Source of the DNA: a virus
Direction: 5' to 3' (one strand)
DNA length: 32,405 bases
Virus record (IMG/VR): IMGVR_UViG_3300033993_002892
Location: 1 to 32,405 of that record
Position 1 is the first letter of the stretch. Every line of letters starts with the position of its first letter. A model generated the notes under the pieces. It was not told the origin of the DNA and did no database searches. It saw only the letters and a program-made list of their open reading frames with translations. Shown piece by piece: positions 3,082-18,025 of this stretch. The position numbers and the translations under genes were made by a program.

Positions 3082-3366
3082 ATGAAAAAAGTAATTAGAC
3101 TTAATGAAAATGATATAGAAAATCTTGTTAAAAAGATTTTAAAAGAAGATAATAGACCTAGAGGTGGCATTTTATATGGTGGTAGATCCGAAATGATTGA
3201 TGAGGTTGTTAATAGAATTAATGAGTATGGTGAAGAATATACTCAAGAACTTATTAAACTTAACAATAGATTTCCTTCCACTAAATATACAAAAATTAAC
3301 CCTCCAACAAGTGTTGAACTTCCAAAGGGCGTTAAAGTAAGAAGTACTGTTTATCCAAATAAATAA
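3082..3366 (+). CDS. Small protein with putative capsid-targeting N-terminal peptide
   Basis: Protein of 94 aa. The first ~23 residues, MKKVIRLNENDIENLVKKILKED, when read in pieces (KVIRL, then ENLVKKILKE), belong to a type of N terminus shared by otherwise unrelated proteins of large Bacteroidota phages. It ends in ILKE, which fits the (L/I)-x-E cut site of T4-type prohead proteases. The rest (glycine-rich LYGGRSEM, then a helical stretch, then Pro-rich tail) is not recognised. An ATATTTAT box lies upstream inside a palindrome, and a terminator follows the stop at once, so it is a single-gene unit. Function unknown; a virion-internal protein is the best guess. Confidence 0.65.
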   Translation: MKKVIRLNENDIENLVKKILKEDNRPRGGILYGGRSEMIDEVVNRINEYGEEYTQELIKLNNRFPSTKYTKINPPTSVELPKGVKVRSTVYPNK

Positions 3367-3392
3367 AAAAAGGGACTATTCAGTTCCTTTTT
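3367..3392. terminator. Bidirectional terminator between convergent genes
   Basis: GGGACT/AGTTCC stem (one G-T pair) with loop ATTC, flanked by A and T runs. It serves the plus gene ending at 3366, and the last codons and stop of the minus gene (3376) are written inside it. Confidence 0.75.
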
Positions 3393-4164
3393 CTTTTAAA
3401 TCTTTTTCATAATCTTTCCAGTTACGATATTCACAAACCTCATTAATATCTAACAATCGATAATTGGTTTCATCGAATTTACCCACCCAATCTCTGTGAA
3501 AGTGACCATAATACCAATAATCAGGTTTATTTTTTTCTTTTAAGATATTACACATCTTAGTTAATAGGTCTCTTTCTTCTCTTAAATCTTCATATAATTT
3601 AGGGTCGTCTTTCGCAAATTGTCCCACCAAATAACCAAAACCCATTTTGTTGTTGGGTTCACAAAAATCAGGTGCGGTATGTGTTACAATAATATCAATA
3701 TTTTCAAAGGTTCTAAGTTTTTCTTCATCTAAGACAAAAACTTCGTCATGCCAATGAAGTTCAACCTCACGATTAACTCTTGCATATTCAAGTTGTTCTC
3801 TCATACGAGGTCTACGGTCAACACTTACAGCACCACCAACACCGAGGATTTTAGTACCTTCAATGTCAATAACAGTATAATCAGCTAATAAATGTAGATT
3901 ATCAAAATGGTTAGCCAAATGACCGTCAAAAAACTTAGGGTTATCGTGGTTACCACGGATGGCATACATTTGGATGTTATACTCTTTTAAGAATTTATTT
4001 AATTCACCCAAAGTATTCATATCGTTATACTCATTGGTAAATCCAATACCGAAATCACCTACCTGATAGATAGTACAATCTTTTATTTTATATGTTTTGA
4101 TGTACCACTTGATATGGTTAAAGTTACCGTGGATGTCACCTAAAAACAACAAAGGTTTTTTCAT
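3376..4164 (-). CDS. Calcineurin-like metallophosphoesterase (second type)
   Basis: Protein of 262 aa with FLGDIHGNF at 7-15, QVGDFGIG near 34-41, RGNHDNP near 71-77, VTHTAPD near 160 and YGHFHRDW near 219-226. All metal ligands of the calcineurin-like fold are present. The length and the IHGN motif resemble the Ser/Thr-phosphatase-like or ApaH-like branch rather than the 200-aa enzyme at 655-1257. It could remove phosphate from proteins or nucleotides; substrate unknown. It is coupled by ATGA to a 49-aa gene upstream, and its C-terminal KGTE codons form part of the terminator. Confidence 0.85.
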   Translation of the reverse strand: MKKPLLFLGDIHGNFNHIKWYIKTYKIKDCTIYQVGDFGIGFTNEYNDMNTLGELNKFLKEYNIQMYAIRGNHDNPKFFDGHLANHFDNLHLLADYTVIDIEGTKILGVGGAVSVDRRPRMREQLEYARVNREVELHWHDEVFVLDEEKLRTFENIDIIVTHTAPDFCEPNNKMGFGYLVGQFAKDDPKLYEDLREERDLLTKMCNILKEKNKPDYWYYGHFHRDWVGKFDETNYRLLDINEVCEYRNWKDYEKDLKEKGTE

Positions 4165-4310
4165 TTTTCTTTTACTTTATAAATTTCTAACAAATTTTTT
4201 GGTTTTAAATCTTTTATTTTTGCGAACATTTCTATCGCTAATTCAAGACTTTTGGTTTTAATCTTATTTATGACATCACCCGATTTGTTTAATAAATGAT
4301 ATTCTTTCAT
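4161..4310 (-). CDS. Small protein of unknown function (49 aa)
   Basis: A 49-residue frame beginning MKEYHLLNKSGDVINKIK and ending IYKVKEK. It is mostly helical and basic with no recognised motif. Support comes from context: the stop overlaps the next start as ATGA, and two TAnnTTTG-like boxes (TATATTTG, 4329-4347 region) lie upstream after the terminator of RNA B. It is probably an accessory partner of the phosphoesterase. Confidence 0.6.
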   Translation of the reverse strand: MKEYHLLNKSGDVINKIKTKSLELAIEMFAKIKDLKPKNLLEIYKVKEK

Positions 4311-4349
4311 GAGACATTCTTTATTAAGCAAATATACGACAAATATATC

Positions 4350-4524
4350 AAAAATAAAACCCCTAAGAATTATTTTCTTAGGGGTTTCAGCTAAAGATTG
4401 AGGGAGGGACTCTCACCCTCCAAAACCTCTCTTCGAGTATAAATACAAAGGGTACCTATTTATACCTTATAATTTGAGACCAGCCTATCCGTCAATAGTC
4501 CGTGTATATCTTCCACCACTCAGC
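4350..4524 (-). ncRNA. Structured small RNA B ending in a terminator
   Basis: About 175 nt of minus-strand non-coding sequence, read from a promoter-like TTG-N20-TACATTTA. It contains a 9-bp hairpin GTATAAATA/TATTTATAC (4437-4445 with 4457-4465), a 6-bp hairpin GGAGGG/CCCTCC (4403-4408 with 4416-4421), and a 10-bp terminator CCCCTAAGAA/TTCTTAGGGG (4360-4369 with 4375-4384) followed on the minus strand by TTTTATTTTTG. It lacks a T-arm and so is not a tRNA. No family recognised. Confidence 0.6.
4360..4384 (-). terminator. Terminator of RNA B
   Basis: Ten-base perfect stem with loop 4370-4374, followed on the minus strand by a T-rich run. It lies just upstream of the 49-aa gene. Confidence 0.85.
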
Positions 4525-4530
4525 CTAATA

Positions 4531-4561
4531 TAAATGTAGGAAACTATTTTTAGACTGTCAA
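4531..4561 (-). promoter_or_regulatory. Putative promoter of RNA B
   Basis: Minus-strand TTG (4559-4561), 20-base spacer, TACATTTA (4531-4538). The -33 region reads TTGACAGTC, identical to that of RNA C. It overlaps a TTAGACT/AGTCTAA hairpin (4550-4572) that may end the upstream gene. Confidence 0.55.
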
Positions 4562-4569
4562 GAAATAGT

Positions 4570-4887
4570 CTAAATAAAATTAAATTGTTTTAGAATTTTT
4601 TCGGGTTCTATTGGACCTTCTTTAATTATTTTCCAAGTACCGTTTCTAACTTGTTCAATAACAACCCTAACAGGCCAAGGTGGGTAAACCTCAACATCTT
4701 CATTTTCATGTTCTATTGTTAAAGTTACCACTCTTTCACCTTCTTCTTCAAAGATTGGACCCAATTTAATAAATCGGTGGTGGCTAATAAACAAACCTTT
4801 AAATACCGCACCACCGTTAGAGACCATAAGAATACCTTCTTTTGGTTTCATGATTGGTTTTTCTCTATGTTTACTGAACTTACTCAA
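4570..4887 (-). CDS. Protein of unknown function (105 aa)
   Basis: No family recognised. The core is beta-rich: GILMVSNGGAVFKGLFISHHRFIKLGP, read in pieces, then TLTIEHENEDVEVYPPWPVRVVIEQV and a C-terminal helix. The track of overlaps suggests a TTG start at 4887, giving TTGA with the upstream stop; an ATG at 4851 (MKPKEGILM) is a good alternative. It is coupled to the 63-aa gene upstream and sits in the operon behind the DNA glycosylase. A TTAGACT/AGTCTAA hairpin at the stop codon may end the transcript. Confidence 0.7.
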   Translation of the reverse strand: MSKFSKHREKPIMKPKEGILMVSNGGAVFKGLFISHHRFIKLGPIFEEEGERVVTLTIEHENEDVEVYPPWPVRVVIEQVRNGTWKIIKEGPIEPEKILKQFNFI

Positions 4888-5075
4888 AATTTATAATATT
4901 CTTTTACGATTTCAGTTATTTCTTCTTCTGATAGGTAAAATTTACCAACAGCCTTTTTTATTAAATAAACAGGGCTAATGTCATTAGGTTCAACGTTATC
5001 AAGAGCTTTTTGGAGTCTTGTTTTTTCCATACTGAAATTAATCTCATCAAAATATTTTTCTTTTATATTACTCAT
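4884..5075 (-). CDS. Small acidic protein of unknown function (63 aa)
   Basis: A 63-residue helical protein starting MSNIKEKYFDEINFSMEK, with a C-terminal half (LSEEEITEIVKEYYKF) that looks like a small helical bundle. It overlaps the glycosylase stop as ATGAGTAA, the same 8-base overlap as at 655-662. A host-like TATCTTTG box lies four bases before the ATG, so it may also be transcribed on its own as a leaderless mRNA. Confidence 0.65.
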   Translation of the reverse strand: MSNIKEKYFDEINFSMEKTRLQKALDNVEPNDISPVYLIKKAVGKFYLSEEEITEIVKEYYKF

Positions 5076-5886
5076 AAGACAAAGATAAATTATATTTTTT
5101 ATCGTACCAAAATTTTCTATTATTTTTATCTACTAAATTGGCCATATCTTTTTTACCGTAACACTTTAACCACTGACCAAATGTTAACTTATCCATATTA
5201 AATGGGTTTGTCCATTCTTTTAATTGTCCACCACCTATAGCATAAGTTTCCAAAGGAATAGATTTACATAATTCAAAGATAATTGGTTGTTTACTTATAT
5301 ACTCCTTAGCGGGTAAAAAAGGGTTCTCATCAATACGGTAAAGAATTTCAGCTCTTAAATAATTACCGATACCGTTAAAGTATTGTTGGTCCATTAAAAC
5401 TTCATAGATTGGTTTTTGAAACAACTTTTTATCTATGTTGTCTCTAACATTTTTAACAAAATTATCAAATTCTCTAATAGGGTCTGGACCCCTTTTGATT
5501 GACCATCCATCTGACCACTGCCATCTCGCAAACCTTCTCATATCAACAAGACACAAAGACTCACCATCGTTAGTGTCAAAAATAAGGTGAGCGTGTTTTG
5601 GTAATCTATCTGATGGGACCATTTGCCAATGACCTGACATACCCATGTTACATACCATAACTTCATTATTAAAATGTTTAAAACATTCAGGTTTTCTACA
5701 AAACTTAATCATAAATTCTTTACCCCTAGTTTCCGATATTAATGTAAATCCAAGAGACCAAGAATTAGTTTTTAAATCTGTCTTAACTTTGCTGACATCA
5801 GATTTTCTAATATTAATAAAAGTTTTGTTTTCAACTATTTCATTGAAGTATTCTGACATTATTTTTACTTCACTTATTTCCGGCAT
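5068..5886 (-). CDS. Fpg/Nei family DNA glycosylase
   Basis: Protein of 272 aa. Pro2-Glu3, the catalytic N terminus of this family, are present; MPEISEV replaces the common MPEGPEV. RGKEF at 54-58 matches the conserved beta-strand Lys, and DMRRFARW at 115-122 and the helix-two-turn-helix QYFNGIGNYLRAEILYR at 168-184 complete the fold. It should excise oxidised bases and cut the strand by beta/delta elimination. The C terminus has no CxxC pair, so the usual zinc finger is missing or replaced by a zincless finger. It heads an operon with two small genes. Confidence 0.88.
   Translation of the reverse strand: MPEISEVKIMSEYFNEIVENKTFINIRKSDVSKVKTDLKTNSWSLGFTLISETRGKEFMIKFCRKPECFKHFNNEVMVCNMGMSGHWQMVPSDRLPKHAHLIFDTNDGESLCLVDMRRFARWQWSDGWSIKRGPDPIREFDNFVKNVRDNIDKKLFQKPIYEVLMDQQYFNGIGNYLRAEILYRIDENPFLPAKEYISKQPIIFELCKSIPLETYAIGGGQLKEWTNPFNMDKLTFGQWLKCYGKKDMANLVDKNNRKFWYDKKYNLSLSYE
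5080..5110 (-). promoter_or_regulatory. Host-like internal promoter before the 63-aa gene
   Basis: Minus-strand TATCTTTG (5080-5087) four bases before the ATG, with TTTG about 20 bases further upstream inside the glycosylase gene. Spacing suggests a leaderless transcript. Confidence 0.5.
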
Positions 5887-5900
5887 AACACTAATTTTTG

Positions 5901-5908
5901 ATATTTAT
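5901..5908 (+). promoter_or_regulatory. Additional ATATTTAT box
   Basis: The sequence GATATTTATAATAATAA resembles the boxes before other genes but lies 50 bases before the nearest plus start (5959), which has its own box. It may be a second promoter or chance. Confidence 0.3.
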
Positions 5909-5945
5909 AATAATAAGAAATTATTTTATTTCAGAACAGCTTCAA

Positions 5946-5953
5946 ATATTTAT
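5946..5953 (+). promoter_or_regulatory. ATATTTAT box, 5 bases before the start at 5959
   Basis: Reads AAATATTTATATCATATG. The spacing puts the likely transcription start at the ATG (leaderless mRNA). Confidence 0.6.
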
Positions 5954-5958
5954 ATCAT

Positions 5959-7167
5959 ATGAGAAAATTAATTTTAAATATCTTAAAAGAAGAAAATGAA
6001 ATTCTTGAGAGGATGATGGGACTCAAATTGGGTAAAGTAAAATCTGCCCTTCCAAGTCAATATTTAGTTAAAACCACAAAAAAACAAGAAAAGTTAAGTA
6101 CCGAAAAAAGAAGGTTAAAACTTATCTCAAGTAGAGTTAACACTTTATACTCCCAAATTGAAAATGAACTTAAAACTTTAAATTGGTCTGACCTTGAACT
6201 TACACCTCGTGATGATTTTTTCTTTGTTGTTCTCCCTAAAAAAATTAAAACTAAAATAGAAAGATTGTCGAAATATTATGAAGAACTTTTAGAAGGAGAT
6301 TTTTTAAACTTAATCGTACCAAAAGATAAAATTACACAACTTTACGAAGATAATAAAAATTACATAAGAGAAGATTTTATATACGTTTATGTAGACCCAC
6401 CAAGAAATAGAACACATTTTCCTAAAGGTTTACCAAAATCTATTTTAGGTTATGATATGGGTATGAAAATATATAGAAACTTACTTGACAAATTAAGTTT
6501 TATTCAATCTGAACCAAACGCTACCCCAAGTGTACAGGCAATTTATAGAAGATTAGTTGAATCTCCTGAAGTTAATGCCGTAATATATATCGACCTTGTA
6601 TTGGTTATAGATAAAAAAATTAGTAAGGAAGAAAAAATTAAAATTTTAAGAGAAAGTATCTACGAAAGATATAAAATGAAACCAAATAGAAGATTAGTCT
6701 TAAACAAAACAATAGTTTTAGACTCAAGTTTAAAAAGAGAAATTGGTGAAAAAAGAATTTTAAGTATGATTGAAGGACTTTTTTATGAGTCAAAAAATTT
6801 AGATTACACACCTTTTTCTCATATAGGTTATATACCAGCTACCACACAAGGTCAAGAAGAATATAAAGTTGTTAAAGAAGACATTGGTTTTAGACCTTCT
6901 TATATGAAACCCGAAATAAATGTTATAATAACTTTTGATGTTCCTGATGCCAGTCAAAATTTAATACCTATATTAGAGGATATTTTAACAAGAAAAAGTA
7001 TTAAAATCAATTCAATCACTGGTGGTAATAACATACACAACTCTTATAGATTAGATATAACTGTTTTTAACAATAGAGACATCCATTTTTTGATAGATGA
7101 TTTAAATCTCGAATTAATGGTAAAATATGACGCTAGAATTCAAGATGTAATGCATCAAATAAAATAA
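5959..7167 (+). CDS. Unknown protein with putative capsid-targeting N terminus (402 aa)
   Basis: The first 12 residues, MRKLILNILKEE, match the shared tag with a possible cut after ILKE. The rest shows no family I recognise: a coiled-coil-prone, Lys-rich region at 35-80 (TKKQEKLSTEKRRLKLISSR), then an alpha/beta body with FIYVYVDPPRNRTHFPKG near 135 and two similar strand-rich blocks, DLVLVIDKKISKEEK near 205 and NVIITFDVPDASQN near 312. The two late blocks could be repeated ferredoxin-like units. The ATATTTAT box five bases before the ATG groups it with the other tagged genes. Probably a virion-internal protein; function unknown. A 65-aa gene follows after 18 bases. Confidence 0.7.
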   Translation: MRKLILNILKEENEILERMMGLKLGKVKSALPSQYLVKTTKKQEKLSTEKRRLKLISSRVNTLYSQIENELKTLNWSDLELTPRDDFFFVVLPKKIKTKIERLSKYYEELLEGDFLNLIVPKDKITQLYEDNKNYIREDFIYVYVDPPRNRTHFPKGLPKSILGYDMGMKIYRNLLDKLSFIQSEPNATPSVQAIYRRLVESPEVNAVIYIDLVLVIDKKISKEEKIKILRESIYERYKMKPNRRLVLNKTIVLDSSLKREIGEKRILSMIEGLFYESKNLDYTPFSHIGYIPATTQGQEEYKVVKEDIGFRPSYMKPEINVIITFDVPDASQNLIPILEDILTRKSIKINSITGGNNIHNSYRLDITVFNNRDIHFLIDDLNLELMVKYDARIQDVMHQIK

Positions 7168-7185
7168 CAATAAAATAAGTTTCTT

Positions 7186-7383
7186 ATGGGGTTAAAAGAT
7201 AAAAATGGCAAGGAAATCAAACCTGGTCACGAGTTAAATGTTCCTTTGGAGGTTTTTTCAAATGGAATTGTTGTATTAGATAAAGAAAATCAACTGTCTT
7301 TGGAATTAAGACATGAATCTAAAAAGTTGCAATTAAAACATCTTAATGAAAATTTCTTAAAAGTTGTGGAAGTTTTAAATTGA
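7186..7383 (+). CDS. Small beta-rich protein of unknown function (65 aa)
   Basis: A 65-residue protein opening MGLKDKNGKEIKPGHELNVP. The DKNGKEIKPG phrase resembles the small SH3-like domains of YopX-type phage proteins, in which a short beta barrel follows this phrase, but the match is weak. It follows the 402-aa gene by 18 bases and probably shares its transcript. The stop codon abuts the structured region C. Confidence 0.6.
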   Translation: MGLKDKNGKEIKPGHELNVPLEVFSNGIVVLDKENQLSLELRHESKKLQLKHLNENFLKVVEVLN

Positions 7384-7389
7384 TTGGGT

Positions 7390-7480
7390 TTTCGTTGTAG
7401 ACAGACCCCGTACTATACCTGTCTTTTATTTGGGGTAGTTCTTGAAACCCGTTTTCAGAACCACAACTTCATTTATAAAT
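7390..7480 (-). ncRNA. Structured RNA C with an H-type pseudoknot
   Basis: On the minus strand ACCCC (7432-7436 complement) pairs with GGGGT (7405-7409), and GACAG (7419-7423) pairs with CTGTC (7400-7404). The order of the four arms gives an H-type pseudoknot with the two 3' arms adjacent. An outer GTTGT/ACAAC pairing and a TTCT...AGAA hairpin surround it. A host-like promoter TTG-N20-TATATTTG points into it. A clear terminator is lacking, so the 3' end is uncertain. The same complementarity exists on the plus strand, where it would be a 3' UTR structure of the 65-aa gene. Confidence 0.5.
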
Positions 7481-7485
7481 ACACA

Positions 7486-7516
7486 CAAATATATAAAAGT
7501 TTTTATTGACTGTCAA
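7486..7516 (-). promoter_or_regulatory. Putative promoter of RNA C
   Basis: Minus-strand TTG (7514-7516; context TTGACAGTC), 20-base spacer, TATATTTG (7486-7493). It fits the Bacteroidota consensus and shares nine bases at -33 with the promoter of RNA B. The stretch 7517-7604 beyond it holds no gene that I can see. Confidence 0.65.
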
Positions 7517-7604
7517 CGCTTTGTGTTAAATTTTTGTTAAGAAAAAGAAACTCGAGTTTTATAGCTGATTGCCAACTTCAACTTAACAATACAAATATTG
7601 TTCG

Positions 7605-8374: not shown

Positions 8375-8411
8375 ATTTTTAAATTGTTTTTTATTTTATT
8401 TTCTATTCTAA

Positions 8412-8963: not shown

Positions 8964-9000
8964 AACTAAAATATACCTGCTTATAATTAGTATGTAAATA

Positions 9001-9025
9001 AAAAACCCACTTTTTGGGTGGGTTT
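9001..9025 (-). terminator. Terminator after the acidic UVR-like gene
   Basis: AAAAACCCAC / GTGGGTTTTT with loop TTTTTGG. It lies just downstream of the stop at 9032 on the minus strand. Confidence 0.85.
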
Positions 9026-9673: not shown

Positions 9674-10045
9674 TTAAAACTTGATTGTATAGTGAATACC
9701 AAAACCTTTAGACCTTGGGTTATAATCTATATCTAACCCTTTTATGAATGTTGGTTTAACAATTACTGATCCGTCTGGTTTAATACCTAAATATTTTTGA
9801 ATAAAAATATCGGTATTTTTACCTATTTTAGGTAAAAGCATCTTTTTTAAAGAGTCATGACCTTTTGGGTTTTTATTGTAAAGAATTAGTGTATCAGCTA
9901 ATTTTAATTTTAGTTGATTGTTTTTTAATTCTTGTGCTTGAGCTTTTGAAAGACCTAAAGTCAATAAAGAAGCTAAACCAATGACAACGTCTTTGACACC
10001 TTCATTTAATTCTTCTTTAATAACACTTTTGATTATATCTCTCAT
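9674..10045 (-). CDS. Small protein with putative capsid-targeting N terminus (123 aa)
   Basis: Opens MRDIIKSVIKEELNEG; the tag would be cut after VIKE or LNE. A short hydrophobic, Ala/Leu-rich segment follows (VVIGLASLLTLGLSKAQA, about 20-38). It could be a membrane-active or signal-like helix and ends in AQA, a common signal peptidase site in this phylum. The remainder is a basic, beta-rich domain ending YNPRSKGFGIHYTIKF. An ATATTTAT box sits six bases before the ATG. One reading is a virion-delivered protein; another is a secreted protein with an unusually long N-region. Confidence 0.6.
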   Translation of the reverse strand: MRDIIKSVIKEELNEGVKDVVIGLASLLTLGLSKAQAQELKNNQLKLKLADTLILYNKNPKGHDSLKKMLLPKIGKNTDIFIQKYLGIKPDGSVIVKPTFIKGLDIDYNPRSKGFGIHYTIKF

Positions 10046-10051: not shown

Positions 10052-10059
10052 ATAAATAT
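10052..10059 (-). promoter_or_regulatory. ATATTTAT box, 6 bases before the start at 10045
   Basis: Minus-strand GTATATTTATGATTATATG. It overlaps the stop region of the gene ending at 10062. Confidence 0.55.
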
Positions 10060-10247: not shown

Positions 10248-11503
10248 TAGTTTAGTTTACTCAATGCGTTTTTTATATTTTTAATTATAATTTCGATTTC
10301 ACCTATTTTACAAGTACCAACAGACAGACGATACCAACTTGAGTCGGCGGAAGAGCCAAAAGCCGAAAAAGGTACAATCGCTAATTTAGCCTCATCTAAT
10401 AAATATTTTGTAATGTCAGATGTTGTTTGAAGTATTTTACCTTCATTTGTTTTTTGACCAATCAAGTTAAACTGTACAGTTAGATAAATCGCTGCCTGTG
10501 GGGTTATAACATCAACTTTAAAACCTTCTGTTTTTAAATCTTGAAAACCCTTATAAAAACCGTCAAGTCGTAAACTTATTTTTGTTTTTTGTGACTCTAT
10601 AAATTTATCGTATATGTTTAAGTCAGATAAATATTTTGCCGTCGCCAATTGTTCAGCCTTGGGTGCCCAAGCACCTACATGTGTTAAAATAGCCTTCATT
10701 TTATCTATAATGAATTTAGATCCCATACTCCAACCAACACGAACACCCGTAGCTGAAAGTGATTTTGATATACCGTCAACAAAAACAGTATATTCTTTCA
10801 TTTCTGGTCTTAAACTTACAGGATTATAGTGTTTAGTATTACCAAAAGTAAGTGCCCAATAAATTTGGTCGTACATTAAATAAACAGGTTTTTGTGTTGG
10901 TAAACGTTTTTTGTTTTCTTCCAATATTAAATCACAAATTTCTTCTAATTTTTCTTTTTTAAACACCGTACCTGTAGGATTTTGTGGTGAACAAAGTGCT
11001 ATGAATGAGGCATCAGAAATATAAGGTTTAATGTCTTTTGCACTTGGCATAAAATTTTCTTCAGGAGAAACCTCGATAACTACCGATTTAGCTCCATTTA
11101 AATATGTGTAGTGATTATTGTTCCAAGACGGTACAGCAAATATTACCGTGTCTTTTGGATCAACCAAAGCCTTAAATATACCATAAATTATAGGTCTTGC
11201 ACCTCCTGCAATCAAAATTTCATCAGGTTTATAATCAAGTTGTCCACGTTGTTTTAATAAATTACTAACCGCTGTTCTTAATTCAATCATACCGTCAGCG
11301 GTAGGATAGTTTGTTTGATTTGTGGAATACTCATCTATTATGTACTGTTTAAGTTCAGTTGGTATTGGAAACTCTTCGGGGTTGAAGTCACCAATCGTAA
11401 GGTTATATATTTTTTCACCTTGTTTTATTTTTTCATTTACCTCACCCGCTAATTTTATTATTTCGGAACCTATAATGTTTTCCGCAATCTTTGAAACTTT
11501 CAT
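10247..11503 (-). CDS. PLP-dependent class I/II aminotransferase (aspartate aminotransferase-like)
   Basis: Full-length fold-type I aminotransferase of 418 aa. Visible: GDFNPEEFPIP at 38-48, NPTG at 175-178 with its PLP-binding Asn, YDQIY at 211-215, the Schiff-base Lys247 in DGISKSLSATGVRVGW, Arg255, and the C-terminal carboxylate-binding Arg in WYRLSVGT near 392. It should move an amino group between an amino acid and a 2-oxo acid in the cytoplasm; the exact substrate is not readable. Such an enzyme is rare in phages and suggests acquisition from a Bacteroidota host. It is followed by a coupled DUF5522-like gene. Confidence 0.9.
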   Translation of the reverse strand: MKVSKIAENIIGSEIIKLAGEVNEKIKQGEKIYNLTIGDFNPEEFPIPTELKQYIIDEYSTNQTNYPTADGMIELRTAVSNLLKQRGQLDYKPDEILIAGGARPIIYGIFKALVDPKDTVIFAVPSWNNNHYTYLNGAKSVVIEVSPEENFMPSAKDIKPYISDASFIALCSPQNPTGTVFKKEKLEEICDLILEENKKRLPTQKPVYLMYDQIYWALTFGNTKHYNPVSLRPEMKEYTVFVDGISKSLSATGVRVGWSMGSKFIIDKMKAILTHVGAWAPKAEQLATAKYLSDLNIYDKFIESQKTKISLRLDGFYKGFQDLKTEGFKVDVITPQAAIYLTVQFNLIGQKTNEGKILQTTSDITKYLLDEAKLAIVPFSAFGSSADSSWYRLSVGTCKIGEIEIIIKNIKNALSKLN

Positions 11504-11512
11504 TTTATAATT

Positions 11513-11833
11513 TTAAAAACCATAGTTATTTCTTGGTACACTTCTATCAAGTTTTTGAAGTTCAACCATTTCTTCACTAACTTCTTCTTTAGTTAAATGA
11601 CCTTTAACATCCCCATCACAACTTCTCCAAATTTCAAAAGTTGTTACACCATCACCATAAAGACCGTAACCACCGCCAACAACCGATATACGATGACCAT
11701 TATCAAATTCCATGATTGCCTGTATTCCACCCAAACCGTTTCTGTGTGGGTAAAACTTTAAATCCTTAAAGGTTTTGTAACCGTAATAAGAATCTGTTAA
11801 ATTATGACTCTTTATCCTCTTGTATGGCTTCAC
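11513..11833 (-). CDS. Phage protein of unknown function (106 aa)
   Basis: The core YKTFKDLKFYPHR, then G-L-G-G-I-QAIMEFDNGHRISVVGGGYGLYGDG, then GHLTKEEVSEEMVELQKL, is recalled from uncharacterised small phage proteins in which a Gly-rich hairpin is followed by a helix of this form. A GTG start at 11833 would overlap the upstream gene by 32 bases; a shorter start is possible but no ATG precedes the conserved core. Function unknown. Confidence 0.65.
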   Translation of the reverse strand: MKPYKRIKSHNLTDSYYGYKTFKDLKFYPHRNGLGGIQAIMEFDNGHRISVVGGGYGLYGDGVTTFEIWRSCDGDVKGHLTKEEVSEEMVELQKLDRSVPRNNYGF

Positions 11834-12073: not shown

Positions 12074-12081
12074 ATATTTAT
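12074..12081 (+). promoter_or_regulatory. ATATTTAT box, 5 bases before the start at 12087
   Basis: Reads AAAATATTTATAAAATATG. It would drive the reductase/PPK2 operon as a leaderless mRNA. Confidence 0.6.
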
Positions 12082-12086
12082 AAAAT

Positions 12087-12881
12087 ATGTCTGATATTAG
12101 ATTAAAAATTAAAGAAGAGGTTTTAAAGTTTCGTAAAGAAATTTTATCCGAGGAGATGGTTCAATCTGAGGCTTATAAAGCCTTAAAAAATACACTAAAA
12201 ACACTTAAGAAAAAAAATAAGGTTCTTTTACTAACCTGTTCTAATAGATTTAATTGGGATGAGGAAAATATTGATATACCTAAATCAACAATTATTGGTA
12301 GTTATTTGGAAGAAGAGTTAGGTGATAAGGCTGTTTTAATAGATGTTCCTGAATTAAAAATATTTGCCTGTGAAGGTAATGTTTCTAGAAAAGATGGTAA
12401 TAGTTGTGGACTTAAAAAGGCTTTGTTAAAGAATAAAGATAAAAATCCTTCAGGGTTTCATAGATGTTGGGCAAGTATCAATAATAAATCGGATGAGTTG
12501 TGGAAGATTTCAAAAGAATTATTTGAATCTGATGCTGTTGTATTTTTTAGTTCGGTTAGATGGGGTCAAGCAAATATGTATTATCAAAATTTAATTGAAC
12601 GTTTGACTTGGATTGAAAACAGACATGCAACTTTAGGTGAAGACAATATTGTTAAAAATATTGAGTCAGGTTTTATTTGTGTTGGTCAAAATTGGAATGG
12701 TGAAAATGTAACTGAAGTACAGAAAAAAGTTCACGATTTTTACGGTTTTAAAACCAACGATAATTTATATTGGAATTGGCAATATGGTAATAACATTAAT
12801 GATGAATCACAAGAATCATATAAAAAGGCTTACAATAAATTTGTTAAAGACACTAAATTAAAAGATTTTACAGAAGAATAA
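12087..12881 (+). CDS. Flavodoxin-fold NAD(P)H-dependent FMN reductase-like protein, N-terminally tagged
   Basis: Protein of 264 aa. The first ~40 residues form a helical extension containing VLKFRKEILSEE, an (L/I)-x-E site like those of the other tagged proteins. The flavodoxin-like domain follows: a first strand NKVLLLTCSNR near 43-53, a Cys-rich insert CEGNVSRKDGNSCGL near 91-105, and the FMN-binding-type strand and loop DAVVFFSSVRWGQANMYYQN near 150-169 ahead of LIERLTWIENR. It probably binds FMN and transfers electrons from NAD(P)H. It overlaps the PPK2 gene by one base (TAATG), so the two proteins should be made together. Confidence 0.72.
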   Translation: MSDIRLKIKEEVLKFRKEILSEEMVQSEAYKALKNTLKTLKKKNKVLLLTCSNRFNWDEENIDIPKSTIIGSYLEEELGDKAVLIDVPELKIFACEGNVSRKDGNSCGLKKALLKNKDKNPSGFHRCWASINNKSDELWKISKELFESDAVVFFSSVRWGQANMYYQNLIERLTWIENRHATLGEDNIVKNIESGFICVGQNWNGENVTEVQKKVHDFYGFKTNDNLYWNWQYGNNINDESQESYKKAYNKFVKDTKLKDFTEE

Positions 12882-14086
12882 TGTCATATTTAAAACAAAT
12901 AATTAAAAAAGAACTTATCAGTGAAGGTTTTTTTAAAGATATGGTTAAAAAATCTTTTAAAAAAAATAATGAGGCCCTTGAACAAAAGGTTCAACATATT
13001 GATGATATTTTTGATGAATTAAAAAAACAAAGTGTTATACCTACTGAAGATAGTCTTGTAACTTCAAAAAAAGGTAAAAAGTATTTAGCTTCTAGCCCAC
13101 AAGGTAAAATGATATTAACTAACAGTGAATATCAAAAAATAATTAATTTACTTGAATTAATCTTAACGTCTGAAAAAAGTGATAATTTAAATTTTGATTT
13201 ATTAAAAAGAAATTTTAGTAATATTCTTTTAAGTAAAGGTGAAAGAACTAAAAATGTTATTAAGTATCTTGAAAAAGTCGTTAAATCTTTAGAAAAAAGG
13301 TTTAGTTACGAAAAGAATTTACCAGCCGAAGAATACTACGAACCTGAAGAGGAAGAAAAATCAGAAATACCAAGAAAACAATATATTAAAGAAAAAAATG
13401 CGTTACAAGTTGAGTTACTTAAAATGCAAGAATGGTTAAAAAAACAAGGTAGTTCTGTTATTATTGTTTTTGAAGGTCGTGACACCGCAGGTAAAGGTTC
13501 AACTATTAAAAAATTTACTGAACATTTAGACCCAAGATTCTACAAAGTTGTTACAAAAGGAATCCCAACAGCTGAAGAAAGAAAAGATTGGTTTGGTCGT
13601 TATAGAAGTGATATTGAACCAGGAAAGATTATTTTCTTTGATAGAAGTTGGTATAATCGTGGTATTGTAGAACCTGTTATGGGTTACTCTTCTTATGAAG
13701 AATATGAATCTTTTATGGCTCAAGTTAATAGTTTTGAAAAAGAATTAGTTTCTAGTGGTAATTTTTTAATTAAATTTTGGTTATCCGTAACTAAAGAAAC
13801 TCAAGCTAGAAGATTTAAGATGAGACAAACTTCTCCTTTAGCTTATTGGAAGTATAGTCCTAATGATGCTAAAGCTCAAGAGATGTGGGACCAATATACC
13901 AAATATAAAAATAGAGTTTTAAAATTAACTTCAACTTCTCAAGCACCTTGGATTGTTGTTGATTCTAATGATAAACGTATTTCAGGTTTAAATGCTATGA
14001 GATATGTATTGAATCAAGTACCTTATGAAGGTAAAAACGAAACAGTTATTGGTGAACCTTATCCTGAGGCGGTAACAAAAATTTAA
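12881..14086 (+). CDS. ppk2: Polyphosphate kinase 2 with N-terminal extension
   Basis: Protein of 401 aa. Residues 165-385 are a complete PPK2 domain: Walker A EGRDTAGKG at 198-206, IPTAEERKDWFGRY near 228-241, Walker B DRSWYNRG at 254-261, and the lid KMRQTSPLAYWKYSP at 313-327. PPK2 moves phosphate between polyphosphate and nucleotides, so it could regenerate NTPs from host polyphosphate. The first ~160 residues are extra: a tag MSYLKQIIKKELISEG with possible cuts at KKE or ISE, then a helical, charged region. A tag plus linker ahead of a full enzyme is what a virion-packaged enzyme would look like. It converges with the LpxH-like gene with 4 bases of overlap. Confidence 0.9.
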   Translation: MSYLKQIIKKELISEGFFKDMVKKSFKKNNEALEQKVQHIDDIFDELKKQSVIPTEDSLVTSKKGKKYLASSPQGKMILTNSEYQKIINLLELILTSEKSDNLNFDLLKRNFSNILLSKGERTKNVIKYLEKVVKSLEKRFSYEKNLPAEEYYEPEEEEKSEIPRKQYIKEKNALQVELLKMQEWLKKQGSSVIIVFEGRDTAGKGSTIKKFTEHLDPRFYKVVTKGIPTAEERKDWFGRYRSDIEPGKIIFFDRSWYNRGIVEPVMGYSSYEEYESFMAQVNSFEKELVSSGNFLIKFWLSVTKETQARRFKMRQTSPLAYWKYSPNDAKAQEMWDQYTKYKNRVLKLTSTSQAPWIVVDSNDKRISGLNAMRYVLNQVPYEGKNETVIGEPYPEAVTKI

Positions 14087-14793
14087 ACAAAAATAATTTT
14101 CCAATTACCTTCAAAATCCTCAACCAAACAGGTAGAATTTTCACAAAAATCACCAGAGTTCATATAATCAGCCTCCAGTTTTGGTTGGTGTATATGTCCA
14201 CACACAGCAACATCATAACCTTTTTGTTTTGTTAAATCTTTAGCATTTTTTTCAAAATCTGAAACAAAATTAATGGCACTTTTAACACTTTGTTTAATTG
14301 TGTTTGCTAAGGAGTGGTAAGGTAAATTAAAAGTTTTTCTTATTTTATTATATATTGTATTTAATCTTATAACAAAATCGTAGGACCAACCACCCAAAAC
14401 AGCTAACCATCTAACCTCCATTATAACAAAATCTAAAACATCACCATGAAAACAGTAATATGTTCTACCATCAATACCGGTGTGTACATACTTTCTAACT
14501 ATTTGAATGTTGTTCATTGTAAAAGGTATAAAAGGTTTTAGAAAATCATCGTGATTACCTCTAATATAGATAACCTCACAACCTTTTTCAGACCTTTTCA
14601 TAAACTTTCTAAATATTTTTGTACAATCATCATTCCACTTACCTTTGTTTTTTAAGGCCCAACCATCAACAATATCACCATTTAATATTATTTTTTCTGA
14701 TTTATTTTCTTTTAAAAACTTTAATATTTTTTCTGTCTGTGATTGTCTTGCACCTAAATGTAAATCACTCATTATTATTGTTTTCCATTTCAT
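14083..14793 (-). CDS. LpxH-like metallophosphoesterase (UDP-2,3-diacylglucosamine diphosphatase-like)
   Basis: Protein of 236 aa. SDLHLGARQSQ at 8-18, LNGDIVDGWAL near 39-49, IRGNHDDFLKPF near 77-88, CFHGDVLD near 113-120 and VCGHIHQPKLE near 199-209 follow the order seen in LpxH-type enzymes, which cleave the pyrophosphate of UDP-diacylglucosamine in lipid A synthesis. Bacteroidota carry many homologues of unclear substrate. I start it at the ATG 14793, which overlaps the glycosyltransferase stop as ATGA. The pairing with a glycosyltransferase suggests action on a nucleotide sugar or membrane glycolipid precursor. Confidence 0.82.
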   Translation of the reverse strand: MKWKTIIMSDLHLGARQSQTEKILKFLKENKSEKIILNGDIVDGWALKNKGKWNDDCTKIFRKFMKRSEKGCEVIYIRGNHDDFLKPFIPFTMNNIQIVRKYVHTGIDGRTYYCFHGDVLDFVIMEVRWLAVLGGWSYDFVIRLNTIYNKIRKTFNLPYHSLANTIKQSVKSAINFVSDFEKNAKDLTKQKGYDVAVCGHIHQPKLEADYMNSGDFCENSTCLVEDFEGNWKIIFV

Positions 14794-15494
14794 GACCAAT
14801 AGTTTTTGTCGTGTTTAAAATAATCAGTATTATTTCTATTAATATAAGACCCAATAAAAATTTTAAGCATATAGAACAAACCTTTATTATCAAATCTTCG
14901 TGGTGTAGTGAAGACAACACTATCTAATACATCAAAATTACTTGAATTTATTTTACGTGTTAATTGGTAGTCTTCAGCAATAGTCAACTTTTCATCAAAC
15001 CCACCTATTTCTTTAAATTTTTCTGATTTGATTAACATAAAACCACCTAAACAAAATGGCGAGACCCACTTTGTGAGTTTTTGAAATTTATGAAATAAAT
15101 TATATATGGAATTATACCTACCATTTGATGTGTTAAATTTACAAGAAATTAAATCTTTATTTTTAGATTCTATATGTTTTATAGAATTTATTAGTAGTTC
15201 GTTGTCTAACAAAAATATGTCGGCATCTAAAAATAAAACATAAGGTGTTTTACAGAATTTAAAACCATTGTTTCTGGCCACAGAAGGTAAACCACCTTTT
15301 ACAACTTTAAGTTTAAAAAAATATTTATCCTCTTCTAATATTTTTTTAGTAAACTTATCATCCGATATATCAGCGACGATAACACTAACATTTTCTATGT
15401 CACTTTGGTGATTTAATAATTCTAAGGTTTTTTTAATTGTTAAACCTTCATTTTTACAGGGTATAACAATTGTTAATTTTTTAGATAAACTCAT
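14790..15494 (-). CDS. Family 2 glycosyltransferase
   Basis: Protein of 234 aa with the GT-A pattern of family 2: LTIVIPCKNEGLTIKKTLELL at 7-27 (first strand and nucleotide-binding turn, read in two pieces), SVARNNGFKFCKTPYVLFLDADIFL with the DxD-type metal site near 93-95, then GGFMLIKSEKFKEIGGFDE and the catalytic-base AEDYQL near 175-180. It should transfer a sugar from an NDP-sugar; there are no clear membrane spans. Together with the coupled LpxH-like gene it could alter host surface glycans or lipids, or glycosylate phage components. Confidence 0.88.
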   Translation of the reverse strand: MSLSKKLTIVIPCKNEGLTIKKTLELLNHQSDIENVSVIVADISDDKFTKKILEEDKYFFKLKVVKGGLPSVARNNGFKFCKTPYVLFLDADIFLLDNELLINSIKHIESKNKDLISCKFNTSNGRYNSIYNLFHKFQKLTKWVSPFCLGGFMLIKSEKFKEIGGFDEKLTIAEDYQLTRKINSSNFDVLDSVVFTTPRRFDNKGLFYMLKIFIGSYINRNNTDYFKHDKNYWS

Positions 15495-15549
15495 ACATAT
15501 AATTATCTTGGGTGTATATATGTCAAGTTAATTATATGTTAAATTCTAA

Positions 15550-16191
15550 CTAACCGTTTTGGTCTCTTCTTCTACGAGATTTACGTTTAGGTATAAATTT
15601 AAATGGTAACATATCAATTTTAATCAATATAGATTCAAATATGCCTTTTGTATACCAACCTTCTTCGTTAGGTAATGAAATATAATTACTGTCGGTAAAG
15701 TATTGATTGTAATCTAAAAACTCTAAAAGACCCCCTGTTGGTGGTTCCAATGGTTGTACTGTAACTAAATCTAAACCCATTGTTTGTGCAGCAACTCTTC
15801 TAGCTATAGGCAACATGATATTCCCAAAATCAGGTTGATTATTATCTTGTGGGGCTCTATAACCTTGATTTAAAATATTACCACCGATTTGGTTCCATCT
15901 GTTAAAAATTTCTTCTTGTCTATTGTTGTTGTAAAACCTTTGATTGTCATGTAAATCTCGGAGTGTTAGTTGGTCGATTTCGTTTCTTATATTTTCAGTC
16001 AGTAAAGCAGTTAATTCAGCCTCAGCATCTATATTATGAAAAGCAGTTATGTCTTGTGCCATTTCAGGAGTCCATACAGCTCTAATTCTACGAGTTTCAC
16101 CAACAACATTAACTGAAGTAAATCTAATGTTAATAGTTTCTTTATTTGTTGGGTCGACAAAACAAAATCCAGGTACTGATTTACTAATCAT
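15550..16191 (-). CDS. T4 major-capsid-derived protein with scrambled segments (213 aa)
   Basis: Residues 34-80 (RRIRAVWTPEMAQDI, then HNIDAEAELTALL, then IRNEIDQLTLRDL) match the central helix region of T4-type major capsid proteins, which read K-A-x-x-S/T-x-E-L-AQD...H-x-D-A-x-AEL...EI-x-x-EI. Residues 127-160 (LPIARRVAAQTMGLDLVTVQPL, read in two pieces, then PPTG and LDY) match the more N-terminal capsid block RR-x-x-x...D-x-x-x-VQP-M-x-x-PTG. In gp23 the second block comes before the first; here the order is reversed. The protein is far shorter than gp23 (521 aa) and ends in a basic tail KRKSRRRRD. It is coupled by ATGA to the gene upstream. Confidence 0.55.
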   Translation of the reverse strand: MISKSVPGFCFVDPTNKETINIRFTSVNVVGETRRIRAVWTPEMAQDITAFHNIDAEAELTALLTENIRNEIDQLTLRDLHDNQRFYNNNRQEEIFNRWNQIGGNILNQGYRAPQDNNQPDFGNIMLPIARRVAAQTMGLDLVTVQPLEPPTGGLLEFLDYNQYFTDSNYISLPNEEGWYTKGIFESILIKIDMLPFKFIPKRKSRRRRDQNG

Positions 16192-16412
16192 AACGTAATT
16201 GTACTATAGTATCTGTTATTTATGGTATTAATTCCGTATCTTGATAAAATACCCTGTCTAGGTTGGAAATCTGTCACAGGGTCAACACTTATATAAGGTA
16301 CCCAAACATATCCAGGGTTAATAAAACCCTCACCTTTGGTTCCGTATATAATAATCCATTCAGGACCACCCCTTAAAAAATTATGTTTCCTTATGTTTCT
16401 TTCAATGACCAT
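16188..16412 (-). CDS. Small protein matching the C-terminal part of T4-type major capsid proteins (74 aa)
   Basis: Residues 30-62 read F-INPGYVWVPYISVDPVTDF, then QPRQGILSRYGIN. This matches the C-terminal gp23 region with YYAPYV-x-L-x-P...FQP-x-x-G-F-x-TRYGI-x-IN. The residues before it (RGGPEWIIIYGTKGEGF) are not assigned. It has an ATATTTAT box five bases before the ATG and overlaps the next capsid-derived gene as ATGA, so both are kept as one intact operon rather than decayed debris. Order along the transcript is capsid C-terminal piece, then middle, then N-terminal piece. Confidence 0.55.
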   Translation of the reverse strand: MVIERNIRKHNFLRGGPEWIIIYGTKGEGFINPGYVWVPYISVDPVTDFQPRQGILSRYGINTINNRYYSTITL

Positions 16413-16417
16413 ATTAT

Positions 16418-16425
16418 ATAAATAT
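16418..16425 (-). promoter_or_regulatory. ATATTTAT box, 5 bases before the start at 16412
   Basis: Minus-strand TAATATTTATATAATATG. It lies against the stop of the Mom-like gene. Confidence 0.58.
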
Positions 16426-17159
16426 TACTCAACTTCTAATGAAACTGTACACTTAGGGCAAGGATAATCAATATTAAAACGTTTATCTTTTACAATTTTA
16501 GTTCCACCACAACAATCGTATTCTTTGGTGTCGGTTTTTTTAGGATAAGATTGTTGTTCGTATAAACATTTTAAGTTTTCATCTATGATATAAGAGTATC
16601 TGTGTTTTTGTGTTCTGTTAATCCAAACACCTACTTTATCTTTGGTCGGACCTCTTGGATTGACCTTCCATTCATTTTTTTCATTCAAATGAAAGAAGTC
16701 AGATTTTTTATCAGTTAAACCGTAATACCTGAAATTACAAACTTGATAGATACTACCGTTGTGACGACTATCGTCCGCTAAGGTTATAACTGCCCTAACA
16801 CCTTCTTTCTTCAATAACCTTATACTGTTACCCAATAGATAAGAAGTTGCATTAGTACCGTTTAAATCAGGTAATACACACAGTCTACTAAGTTCTAATA
16901 CTGTTTGGTCGGTATTGGGTAATCCGAACCAGCCTTTTAAGGCAACATTACCTTGTGGATTACTAAAGGTAGTTACACCCATTAATTCGTTTGTTTCCTT
17001 ATAGTATAAGCCAAAAGAAAACTTAGCAAAGAATTTAGCGTCACCCAAATAATGGTATGTCTTAACAAAGTCATAAGCCACTTTTTTATCAATTTGTTTA
17101 ATCACAAAAATTGTGTTCGCCTTTACTTCTCTAGTAATGAACTTTATAATATTATCCAT
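16425..17159 (-). CDS. Mom-like DNA modification protein (GNAT fold)
   Basis: Protein of 244 aa. The block VKTYHYLGDAKFFAKFSFGL near 32-51, then LMGVTTFSNPQG, LELSRLCVLPDL, NATSYLLGNSIRLLK and ITLADDSRHNGSIYQVCNFRYYG follows the layout of Mu Mom and its relatives, a GNAT-fold family that carbamoylmethylates adenine or makes similar changes to protect DNA from restriction. The C terminus adds a zinc-ribbon-like pair: DCCGG near 214 and YPCPKC near 233. A role in protecting phage DNA is likely; the exact modification is not readable. It faces the gene at 17219 divergently. Confidence 0.75.
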   Translation of the reverse strand: MDNIIKFITREVKANTIFVIKQIDKKVAYDFVKTYHYLGDAKFFAKFSFGLYYKETNELMGVTTFSNPQGNVALKGWFGLPNTDQTVLELSRLCVLPDLNGTNATSYLLGNSIRLLKKEGVRAVITLADDSRHNGSIYQVCNFRYYGLTDKKSDFFHLNEKNEWKVNPRGPTKDKVGVWINRTQKHRYSYIIDENLKCLYEQQSYPKKTDTKEYDCCGGTKIVKDKRFNIDYPCPKCTVSLEVE

Positions 17160-17193
17160 AGTTTAAGTTTAAACAATAAAAATTACAACCTAA

Positions 17194-17201
17194 ATATTTA
17201 T
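17194..17201 (+). promoter_or_regulatory. ATATTTAT box, 17 bases before the start at 17219
   Basis: Reads TAAATATTTATTAAAA. The spacing leaves a short leader. Confidence 0.45.
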
Positions 17202-17218
17202 TAAAAAAAGAATGTTAT

Positions 17219-17668
17219 ATGGCAGAAAAAATTTCAGAATTCAAACTACAAGAACCTTTAAGAACCAATAGATGGTTATTAAAAGCAGGTAAAGTACCAG
17301 TGTGGTTGGTTCGTTCCACAAACTTAGAGACCTTTGTTGAGAAGGGAAAAACTTATACAAAATTAAATTTTTCCTTATTAAACACGGTTGATTACACAAT
17401 AGTACCTGATGATGTTATTCAGTTAAGAAAAATTAAATTAGAATTTTTAGATTCAGTTGGTCACGTAATTAACGGTTACGACATGAATGTTGAATTTGAA
17501 AAAATGAGTTTAAAGTGTGATTATTCTGACGATGGTTTATTAACCCACAATTTTGTCTTCTACGTTAAAAATTTAAACCAACTTCATACCAATGTTGGTG
17601 AGGAATCTGAAAAAGAAATTGTAGAAAATTACAAGAACAATAAGAAAAAAGAAGAAGTGAGGATTTAG
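17219..17668 (+). CDS. Putative virion protein of unknown function (149 aa)
   Basis: Opens MAEKISEFKLQEPLRTNRWLL and is beta-rich through most of its length (VPVWLVRSTN, TKLNFSLLNTVDYTI, IQLRKIKLEFLDSVG, LLTHNFVFYVKNL), with a charged C-terminal tail. The PLRTNRWL opening and strand pattern remind me of small tail-associated proteins of T4-like phages, but I cannot name a family. It has an ATATTTAT box and ends in a terminator whose loop contains its stop codon. Confidence 0.6.
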   Translation: MAEKISEFKLQEPLRTNRWLLKAGKVPVWLVRSTNLETFVEKGKTYTKLNFSLLNTVDYTIVPDDVIQLRKIKLEFLDSVGHVINGYDMNVEFEKMSLKCDYSDDGLLTHNFVFYVKNLNQLHTNVGEESEKEIVENYKNNKKKEEVRI

Positions 17669-17682
17669 TCCTCATTTTTTTT
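17657..17682. terminator. Terminator with the stop codon in its loop
   Basis: TGAGGA / TCCTCA stem; the loop TTTAG (17664-17668) includes the TAG stop of the gene at 17219. A run of eight T follows. Confidence 0.85.
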
Positions 17683-17683
17683 A

Positions 17684-18025
17684 TTATTGGATACTTAAAA
17701 ATTTTTTAATTATATTTTTTAAAACCGATTCTTCCTGTCTGAGTAGATACGGCGGTATTTCTAAAGAACCAAAATCTTGCTTATATCTCATATCCCAATA
17801 TATTCTATCAACCAAATCTTTTTTATTACCCCTAACAGGATATGGTTTTTTGTCAATTATTATATATTTATCACCCATAAATTTTGACATGTTTTTTGGG
17901 TAATCGGTTAAAAGTTCATCAATAAACCCAATAGGGTAATATTTAGTTAAATTTTCTAAGAGGTCATCATGTAATAAATCATTGATTTCAGATTCTTTTA
18001 ATATTTTACGGATAATATTTCTCAC
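17684..18025 (-). CDS. Small protein with putative capsid-targeting N terminus, GTG start (113 aa)
   Basis: Starts with GTG: MRNIIRKILKESEIND. The tag fits the family, with a possible cut after ILKE. The rest is a helical/basic protein containing YYPIGFIDELLTDYPKN, GDKYIIIDKKPYPVRGN and RIYWDMRYKQDFGSLEIP; no family recognised. The GTG start is favoured because the ATATTTAT box lies four bases before it, with the same sequence context (GATATTTATAATT) as the boxes at 18085 and 30087. Confidence 0.62.
   Translation of the reverse strand: MRNIIRKILKESEINDLLHDDLLENLTKYYPIGFIDELLTDYPKNMSKFMGDKYIIIDKKPYPVRGNKKDLVDRIYWDMRYKQDFGSLEIPPYLLRQEESVLKNIIKKFLSIQ

Follow-up and report, generated by a model that had tools for sequence, protein, structure and literature searches.

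Several unrelated proteins encoded in a 32,405-base stretch of viral DNA (IMG/VR record IMGVR_UViG_3300033993_002892, hereafter the window) begin with a short peptide that ends in (L/I)-x-E. We consider it very probable that these N-terminal peptides are T4-type capsid-targeting propeptides carried by a large, exchangeable set of cargo proteins in a jumbo T4-like phage. The first-pass annotation had interpreted them along these lines, and comparison with related phages supports its interpretation; packaging, cleavage, and injection of the tagged proteins are predicted from the sequences. Under this model, the tagged proteins would be made late in infection from a late-type box, and the tag would bind the prohead scaffold core. 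The S77 (gp21-type) protease would cut after (L/I)-x-E while trimming gp23, and the freed bodies would stay in the head with the DNA and be delivered to the next cell. A cassette of box, start codon, and tag would let the cargo bodies be exchanged.

The window and its closest relative

The window (30% GC, 48 open reading frames [ORFs]) is a fragment of a larger phage genome. ORFs were called mechanically (longest first; at least 60 amino acids [aa], 50 in some pools) rather than with a gene finder, which makes start positions and counts approximate. The window's Ro/TROVE-like protein led to a 317,983-base contig, IMGVR_UViG_3300027793_000052 (G017; related contigs and loci are given here as G and L numbers), which matches 30 of the 48 window ORFs at up to 88% identity. 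Twenty-six of the 30 are collinear, in reverse, when a circular shift is allowed, and one match, that of the protein starting at 3082, is confined to the tag. Since G017 carries an S77 prohead protease (E 6.9e-31) and gp23 (E 5.9e-63), we conclude that the window belongs to a jumbo T4-like phage.

Tagged genes in the window

All six ORFs previously noted for tag-like starts are present with the reported N termini, and each starts with an (L/I)-x-E peptide, although the tag of the gene at 12087 is doubtful because a relative lacks the site. The bodies behind the tags had been described as unrelated; consistent with this, Pfam identifies polyphosphate kinase 2 (PPK2) in the 12881 protein and nothing above its cut-offs in the other five. 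A seventh tagged gene, absent from that list, appears when the ORF starting at 27801 on the minus strand is read from the ATG at 27798. The seven genes are as follows.

3082..3366, plus strand: tagged gene, 94 aa, long tag MKKVIRLNENDIENLVKKILKE at 3082-3147; profile scores 25.5 and 27.1 bits
5959..7167, plus strand: tagged gene, 402 aa, MRKLILNILKE at 5959-5991; profile score 14.8 bits
9674..10045, minus strand: tagged gene, 123 aa, MRDIIKSVIKE at 10013-10045; profile score 13.2 bits, barely above threshold
12087..12881, plus strand: gene, 264 aa, candidate tag MSDIRLKIKEEVLKFRKEILSE at 12087-12152; the weakest tag
12881..14086, plus strand: tagged PPK2, 401 aa, MSYLKQIIKKELISE before GFFKDM at 12881-12925; Pfam PF03976 (E 1.3e-73) and orthologue alignment
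17684..18025, minus strand: tagged gene, 113 aa, GTG start, VRNIIRKILKE at 17993-18025; profile score 23.6 bits
26572..27801, minus strand: seventh tagged gene, HExxH protein, MKKQQLLNE before IMGVPK at 27772-27798; orthologues

BLAST alignments of the 3082 protein end at residues 22 to 24 in three of four contigs matched, and the alignment with G017 ends at residue 22. The 12087 product has a weak structure model (pLDDT 63) with flavodoxin-like matches (best E 5e-4), a hint that it is perhaps flavodoxin/FMN-reductase-like; that of the HExxH protein, with a pLDDT of 47, was too poor to use. Searches of PDB sequences with these two proteins returned nothing at E up to 1. The proteins at window 9674-10045, G002 3575, and G005 69365, which differ in length, have a similar stretch, E.(F/V)K..(V/W)..G/A.A.LL... 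AQ, after the start region.

The tag is concentrated at N termini across related phages

The relatives carry the tag in a long form, MKKxI(K/R)L(N/T)ExDIxxLVxKI(I/L)xE, and a short form, M(K/R)(N/D)LI(K/R)KI(L/I)(K/R)E, that resembles the last half of the long one; tag lengths here range from 7 to 22 residues. A 10-column tag profile trained without the window and applied at a threshold of at least 13 bits matched 4 of 1530 N-terminal positions in the held-out window (the genes at 3082, 5959, 10045, and 18025) versus 1 of 7832 internal positions. In the relatives, it matched 113 of 53,070 N-terminal versus 27 of 359,173 internal positions at this threshold, and 92 versus 8 positions at 17 bits.

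Permuting the first 40 residues of each protein (200 shuffles for the window, 40 for the overall set) gave an expectation of 0.025 tagged proteins in the window (largest 1), against the 4 observed. For G005, 28 tagged proteins were observed versus 0.25 expected, and overall 119 among 1854 proteins versus 1.55 (largest 5). These 119 include probable non-tags that were not removed from the counts, namely, a conserved gene present seven times that matches internally, a short conserved gene present three times, an epimerase of the cultured phage immuto, and G002 13937. About 25 profile-tagged proteins per genome were present in G017 and G005. When 59 tagged proteins, hand-picked from the 119 and mostly longer than 110 aa, were aligned, Glu was the sole invariant column and mean column identity was 5%.

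The negative control, a single crAss-like phage in which neither S77 nor gp23 was found, gave no profile matches at 3060 N-terminal or 26,351 internal positions. A looser pattern, [ILVM][ILMV]xE, showed no N-terminal excess there (10 of 102 versus 110 of 1023 internal windows). A search of 50,697 phage records with one 29-aa tag peptide returned only four weak matches, to Agrobacterium phages (E 4 to 8). A search for gapped-triplet N-terminal motifs in all contigs yielded mainly patterns resembling conserved structural genes and was set aside. Many of the tags in G005 (L150-L160) and G017 (L285-L300) are closely followed by a second motif like DFDWxKD or DFGWAE.

The tags follow the predicted cleavage rule of gp23

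To avoid circularity, long tags were selected by their upstream half only (39 rows, of which 2 chance captures were dropped by hand). The residue at P1 was Glu in 35 of the 37 remaining tags and that at P3 was Ile or Leu in 32 (Met in 3, Val in 2), with a variable middle residue, by hand tally. The same rule applies to gp23: P3 was Leu or Ile and P1 Glu in all 46 ORFs matched among 80 loci (32 distinct segments), where the N-terminal site reads (L/I)-(T/N/S)-E followed by S, T, A, or N. We take this site, by eye, to be the counterpart of the T4 gp23 site, which reads FLTE before AE at residue 65. The T4 gp23 propeptide is 65 residues long, and the cleavage rule is given as L/I-X-E in the accessible text of PMC9026906.

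Orthologous cargo proteins preserve the ends of their tags. PPK2 has ISE, LSE, or ITE before GFFKD in three contigs and LSE elsewhere in G003. The HExxH protein has LNE before IMGVPK in the window, LLNE before VMGVPK in G001, and LLKE before IMGVPK in G017. Counterparts of the 5959 protein in L181 and G017 have a different N-terminal half and start with MENLITE and MSNLLNE, respectively, before GRYD. Thus, L/I and E are retained and the middle residue changes, as a protease site predicts. Because their orthologues keep (L/I)-x-E, the tags at 12881 and 27801 are supported independently of the profile.

A T4-type prohead protease in the same genome had been proposed as a check. None lies in the window fragment, and the expectation is borne out in the relative G017; S77 is likewise present in G002 (E 4.6e-30), whose contig also holds a PPK2 59% identical to that of the window, and in immuto (at 124714). 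All 12 S77 contigs tested contain gp23. We found 212 S77 loci, fetched 80, and listed 40 of these. The expectation that related phages would carry the tag also held: all 18 close S77 loci (L058-L073, L075, and L076) showed tag-like starts, recognized either by eye or with the profile.

In 16 of these 18 loci, one or more long- or short-tag genes directly follow the protease; the exceptions are L058, where the next gene starts MNRLNKLKHIEELNKRLLSE, and L076. The order in close loci, as in G017, is protease, tagged gene(s), scaffold-like gene, and gp23, where the contig continues. Distant S77 loci (L077 onward) mostly have no tagged gene after the protease, and in L086, L096, L112, L120, and L129, short-tag genes lie just after gp23. 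G005 and G017 contain many further tagged genes elsewhere, often in runs.

A shared block of box, start codon, and tag precedes different bodies

The first-pass annotation had placed all tagged genes under a ATATTTAT box, either directly or through an operon. This sequence occurs 23 times in the window versus 8.2 expected, and six of the occurrences lie upstream of tagged genes.

3060..3067, plus strand: ATATTTAT box upstream of 3082; also present before the tagged gene at 27227 in G004
5946..5953, plus strand: ATATTTAT box upstream of 5959
10052..10059, minus strand: ATATTTAT box upstream of 10045
12074..12081, plus strand: ATATTTAT box upstream of 12087 and 12881
18030..18037, minus strand: ATATTTAT box upstream of 18025, part of the conserved box-start-tag block
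27804..27811, minus strand: ATATTTAT box upstream of 27801

A box was located within 40 nucleotides (nt) upstream of 6 of 6 tagged window ORFs versus 5 of 42 others (P = 4e-5). The six are the profile-detected genes at 3082, 5959, 10045, and 18025 together with 12087 and 27801, which were added by hand; 12881, which directly follows 12087, was counted among the 42. The association is partial in relatives (12 of 24 tagged genes versus 57 of 363 others in G017; 19 of 52 versus 68 of 463 over six contigs including the window, P = 2e-4). In T4, late promoters read TATAAATA, which is TATTTATA in reverse complement; the ATATTTAT box is a putative late promoter.

Comparison of the window with L001, a near-identical contig (99% identity over 6.2 kb), revealed a tag with different bodies behind it.

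17993..18052, minus strand: promoter-plus-tag cassette, 60 nt shared with L001 at 91.7% identity, ending exactly at the Glu-11 codon

This block, made up of the box, the GTG start codon, and the 11 VRNIIRKILKE codons, is followed by unrelated bodies in the window and L001; a further 31-base match lies at the L001 end. At the corresponding place, G001 and G017 have tagged genes with other bodies. Among the five bodies found there, BLAST matches were short or weak only, the best covering 50 aa between two G017 genes (E 7e-4). The cassette of the 3082 gene (box, start, and 14 codons; 89.6% identity) similarly recurs before a different body in G004, which also has a 3082 orthologue. These comparisons suggest that the box, the start codon, and the tag are transferable together on a single piece of DNA, with bodies swapped behind a fixed tag.

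Cargo behind the tags

When 39 profile-tagged proteins were scanned singly, 7 had a Pfam family above the cut-off. Tagged proteins include a protein in L120 with the domain termed "ADP-ribosyltransferase in polyvalent proteins" (ART-PolyVal; E 7e-17), a sigma-70 factor (E 7e-14) and a GP88/L5-gp82 protein in G005, a poly(A) polymerase in G013 (E 8e-36), and a G016 protein with a Yae1_N match. SprT-like proteins scored above the cut-off in L073 and L076 (best E 7e-6) and below it in L060; in several loci, the tagged SprT-like gene adjoins the scaffold-like gene. One tagged 984-aa protein carries two domain families. L112 and L096 proteins taken by eye for ADP-ribosyltransferases had no Pfam hit, so this assignment rests on L120. 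The ART-PolyVal, sigma-70, and GP88/L5-gp82 cargo fits injected effectors.

The same body, DRC..IA..KYD..PSAY.SGA, occurs in the distant phages G004 (27887), G017 (39025), and immuto (111184), each time behind a short N-terminal peptide, which ends LLQE before A in two and ILSE before K in one.

Candidate tags of other phage lineages

We lean toward a broader proposal, to which we attach less confidence, that T4-like jumbo and huge phages share a cargo code in which lineage-specific (L/I)-x-E tags and a mobile late-type-box cassette turn captured genes into injected cargo. Three huge metagenomic genomes of 634 to 735 kb, LR756502 (W01, 642 kb), LR745206, and LR756501, were analyzed over 640 of 642 kb for W01 and over 400 kb each of 635 and 735 kb for W02 and W03. 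PPK2 in all three has a start that ends F-(I/M)-N-E, and the gp23 N termini read INE, INE, and MNE at the presumed site (by eye). Each also has an S77-like domain, below the Pfam cut-off (E 1e-4 to 8e-6), in the ORF that immediately precedes gp23. This domain forms the N-terminal part of a 700- to 800-aa ORF (W01:225272-227371, W02:198546-200669, and W03:73913-76336), which is perhaps a protease-scaffold fusion.

In the 642-kb phage, L..Y.(I/L/V/M)FE occurred in 38 of 933 N termini versus 2 of 6318 internal windows, and (F/Y)..F(I/L/M/V).E in 24 of 933 versus 12 of 6318; the latter pattern occurred in 14 of 541 versus 6 of 4017 and in 24 of 515 versus 7 of 4044 in the other two. Starts of the type MK(H/Y)L..Y.(I/L)FES in LR756502 number 38 of 933 by the strict pattern and 113 by a loose one. 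A body motif resembling DILxDLxDDG seems common to many members of this set, which implies that the tagged set is partly a gene family.

Evidence weighing against packaged cargo

Several observations count against the proposal that the tags are capsid-targeting propeptides. Our searches turned up neither virion proteomes nor N-terminal sequence data for these uncultured phages. S77 is missing from the window fragment and was not found in G001, G003, G004, or four of six further records, which may themselves be fragments. Three of the seven window tags (12087, 12881, and 27801) score below the profile threshold, the 12087 relative in G003 (66% identity) has no (L/I)-x-E site, and two of the 37 long tags lack Glu. 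The profile seeds were chosen for [IL]xE and iterated, so the P3 and P1 scores are partly circular, which does not apply to the long tags selected by their upstream half or to the gp23 sites. A first profile, for which only G005 was used, separated N-terminal from internal positions less well (4 N-terminal and 3 internal window hits at 11 bits) and was refined because of its many internal hits. The loose pattern shows little or no N-terminal excess in G013 (ratio 1.00), G003 (0.85), and G011 (1.66), although G013 has clear tags. The link to the box was not significant in G005 (7 of 28 versus 29 of 223, P = 0.08). We know of no poly(A) polymerase or sigma-70 factor among internal head proteins.

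More distant phages add to these points. In the 642-kb phage, the clade profile gave 0 N-terminal versus 3 internal hits. In the cultured Flavobacterium phage vB_FspM_immuto, it gave three hits, one of them, annotated as a nucleotide-sugar epimerase, probably by chance; by eye only, two immuto proteins start MKKQILSEQF(K/R)RMQ.LAGIITE and four have KKFLVENKLT-like starts. A literature search on immuto and the accessible text of PMC7077304, on cultured relatives, gave no virion proteome; neither "mass spectrometry" nor the FspM name of immuto occurred in the latter.

Alternative explanations

The best-surviving alternative, which we consider unlikely, is that the tag does load the prohead and that most bodies are core or assembly proteins, cut up and lost like T4 gp67 and gp68, rather than effectors. 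Several small tagged proteins do follow the protease, where core proteins are expected, and gp21 cuts the core proteins of T4 (accessible text of PMC9026906). However, the majority of profile hits in G005 and G017 are located well away from the head module, and some tagged proteins carry enzyme domains.

The peptide might instead be an uncut docking helix for the tail, the membrane, or a phage replication site, with (L/I)-x-E reflecting helix amphipathicity. The peptide is indeed short, basic, and amphipathic, its cleavage is a prediction, and 348 of 624 pairs of long-tag proteins align beyond the tag, partly through related bodies. Nevertheless, Glu was the commonest alignment end (83 of the 624 pairs), and 276 pairs ended within -2 to +5 of it. 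P3 I/L and P1 E are kept while P2 varies, different tag sequences retain the same ending, and gp23 obeys the same (L/I)-x-E rule. We therefore regard a docking helix as improbable.

Even less credible is a DNA or RNA element, a promoter plus an AT-rich translation start copied by recombination, with no protein signal. Box and tag DNA do move together, yet across 36 long tags, codon-position variation was 0.226, 0.186, and 0.46 at first, second, and third positions. Third positions thus vary about twice as much, which indicates selection on the peptide rather than the DNA. Distant contigs share long tags, many tagged genes lack a box in the 40 nt upstream, and a DNA-only element was accordingly rejected, as was composition. 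Chance in an AT-rich, Lys/Ile-rich proteome is scarcely credible: the loose pattern does appear within protein chains as well (34 of 292 internal windows versus the N-terminal part of 15 of 48 window ORFs, Fisher P = 9e-4) and is not enriched in every contig (N-terminal/internal ratio 2.39 in the window and 2.96 in G005), but the held-out profile and the shuffled N termini refute chance for the tag set, though not for 12087 alone, and the crAss-like control points the same way.

Precedents and implications

The principle of capsid-targeting propeptides is already known from T4. As here, T4 IPI, IPII, IPIII, and Alt, which are cut by gp21, have a short N-terminal propeptide with an (L/I)-x-E end and diverse bodies (PMC9026906 and PMC3012670). 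According to the accessible text of PMC9026906, ten IPIII residues suffice for incorporation, with targeting mainly through residues 4 and 7 and processing through residues 8 and 10, and a Glu-to-Asp change in IPIII abolishes the cut. That of PMC3012670 describes T-even internal proteins as diverse defense proteins in which only the targeting sequence is conserved. Both T4 and the present clade have an S77 protease and gp23. The start of T4 gp24, MAKINELLRE, after which we take gp24 to be cut, has hydrophobic residues at -6, -3, and -2 from Glu, as do the tags here; the tag of T4 IPIII is MKTYQEFIAE. In contrast to T4, the present phages have a KKIIKE-type tag, some 25 tagged proteins per genome, a box-tag cassette, and candidate cargo that includes PPK2, sigma-70, and SprT-like proteins.

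In the giant phage SPN3US, a prohead protease likewise trims internal head proteins, namely, ejection proteins. However, several of the SPN3US propeptides exceed 100 residues, and only one (20 residues) is of T4 length (accessible text of PMC5694885); the 7- to 22-residue tags described here do not resemble such long propeptides (about 80 to over 160 residues). Polyvalent proteins, whose ART domain one tagged protein carries, are predicted to enter with the DNA, with packaging inferred from domains and context (accessible text of PMC5512222). Unlike in that approach, a sequence tag is available here, and apart from the 984-aa protein, the tagged proteins scanned show at most one domain above Pfam cut-offs.

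As far as the open-licence literature shows, the tag in such jumbo T4-like phages, the number of proteins that carry it, the box-tag cassette, and the lineage dialects are new, although a prior description is possible; a word search of the accessible text of a 2026 jumbo-phage review (PMC13282480) did not find "capsid targeting." Many jumbo phage genes have no known role, and if the tag acts as a packaging label, scanning N termini would yield a testable list of injected proteins for uncultured phages. The polyphosphate kinase, ADP-ribosyltransferase, and sigma factor would then point to early takeover or counterdefense functions, and a natural promoter-plus-tag cassette would explain fast cargo exchange. 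The tag would also be a new peptide for loading proteins into phage heads. Should the shared cargo code be real, each genome would encode tens of injected proteins, among them PPK2, a sigma factor, and an ADP-ribosyltransferase, and the set could be listed from sequence.

Other features of the window

One further window protein supports the assignment to a T4-like phage.

15550..16191, minus strand: protein related to part of gp23, 44% identity over 102 aa of the middle of G005 gp23

A second small protein (16188-16412, minus strand) is 32% identical over 63 aa to a region near the C terminus of G005 gp23, so that the two match separate parts of gp23 in reversed order. Both also occur in G001, and the first is found in G017 at 11262-11816, where it matches PF07068; it is perhaps a capsid-derived accessory protein. 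The host is probably a member of the Bacteroidota, given the kinship of gp23 with that of a Flavobacterium phage and a putative gliding-type sorting domain at the end of the window protein at 21863-25042. The Ro/TROVE-like protein (18931-20523, minus strand) is 51% identical to Bacillus phage G gp540, and three tRNA genes (Arg, Asn, and Glu) lie at 25790-26319 on the minus strand.

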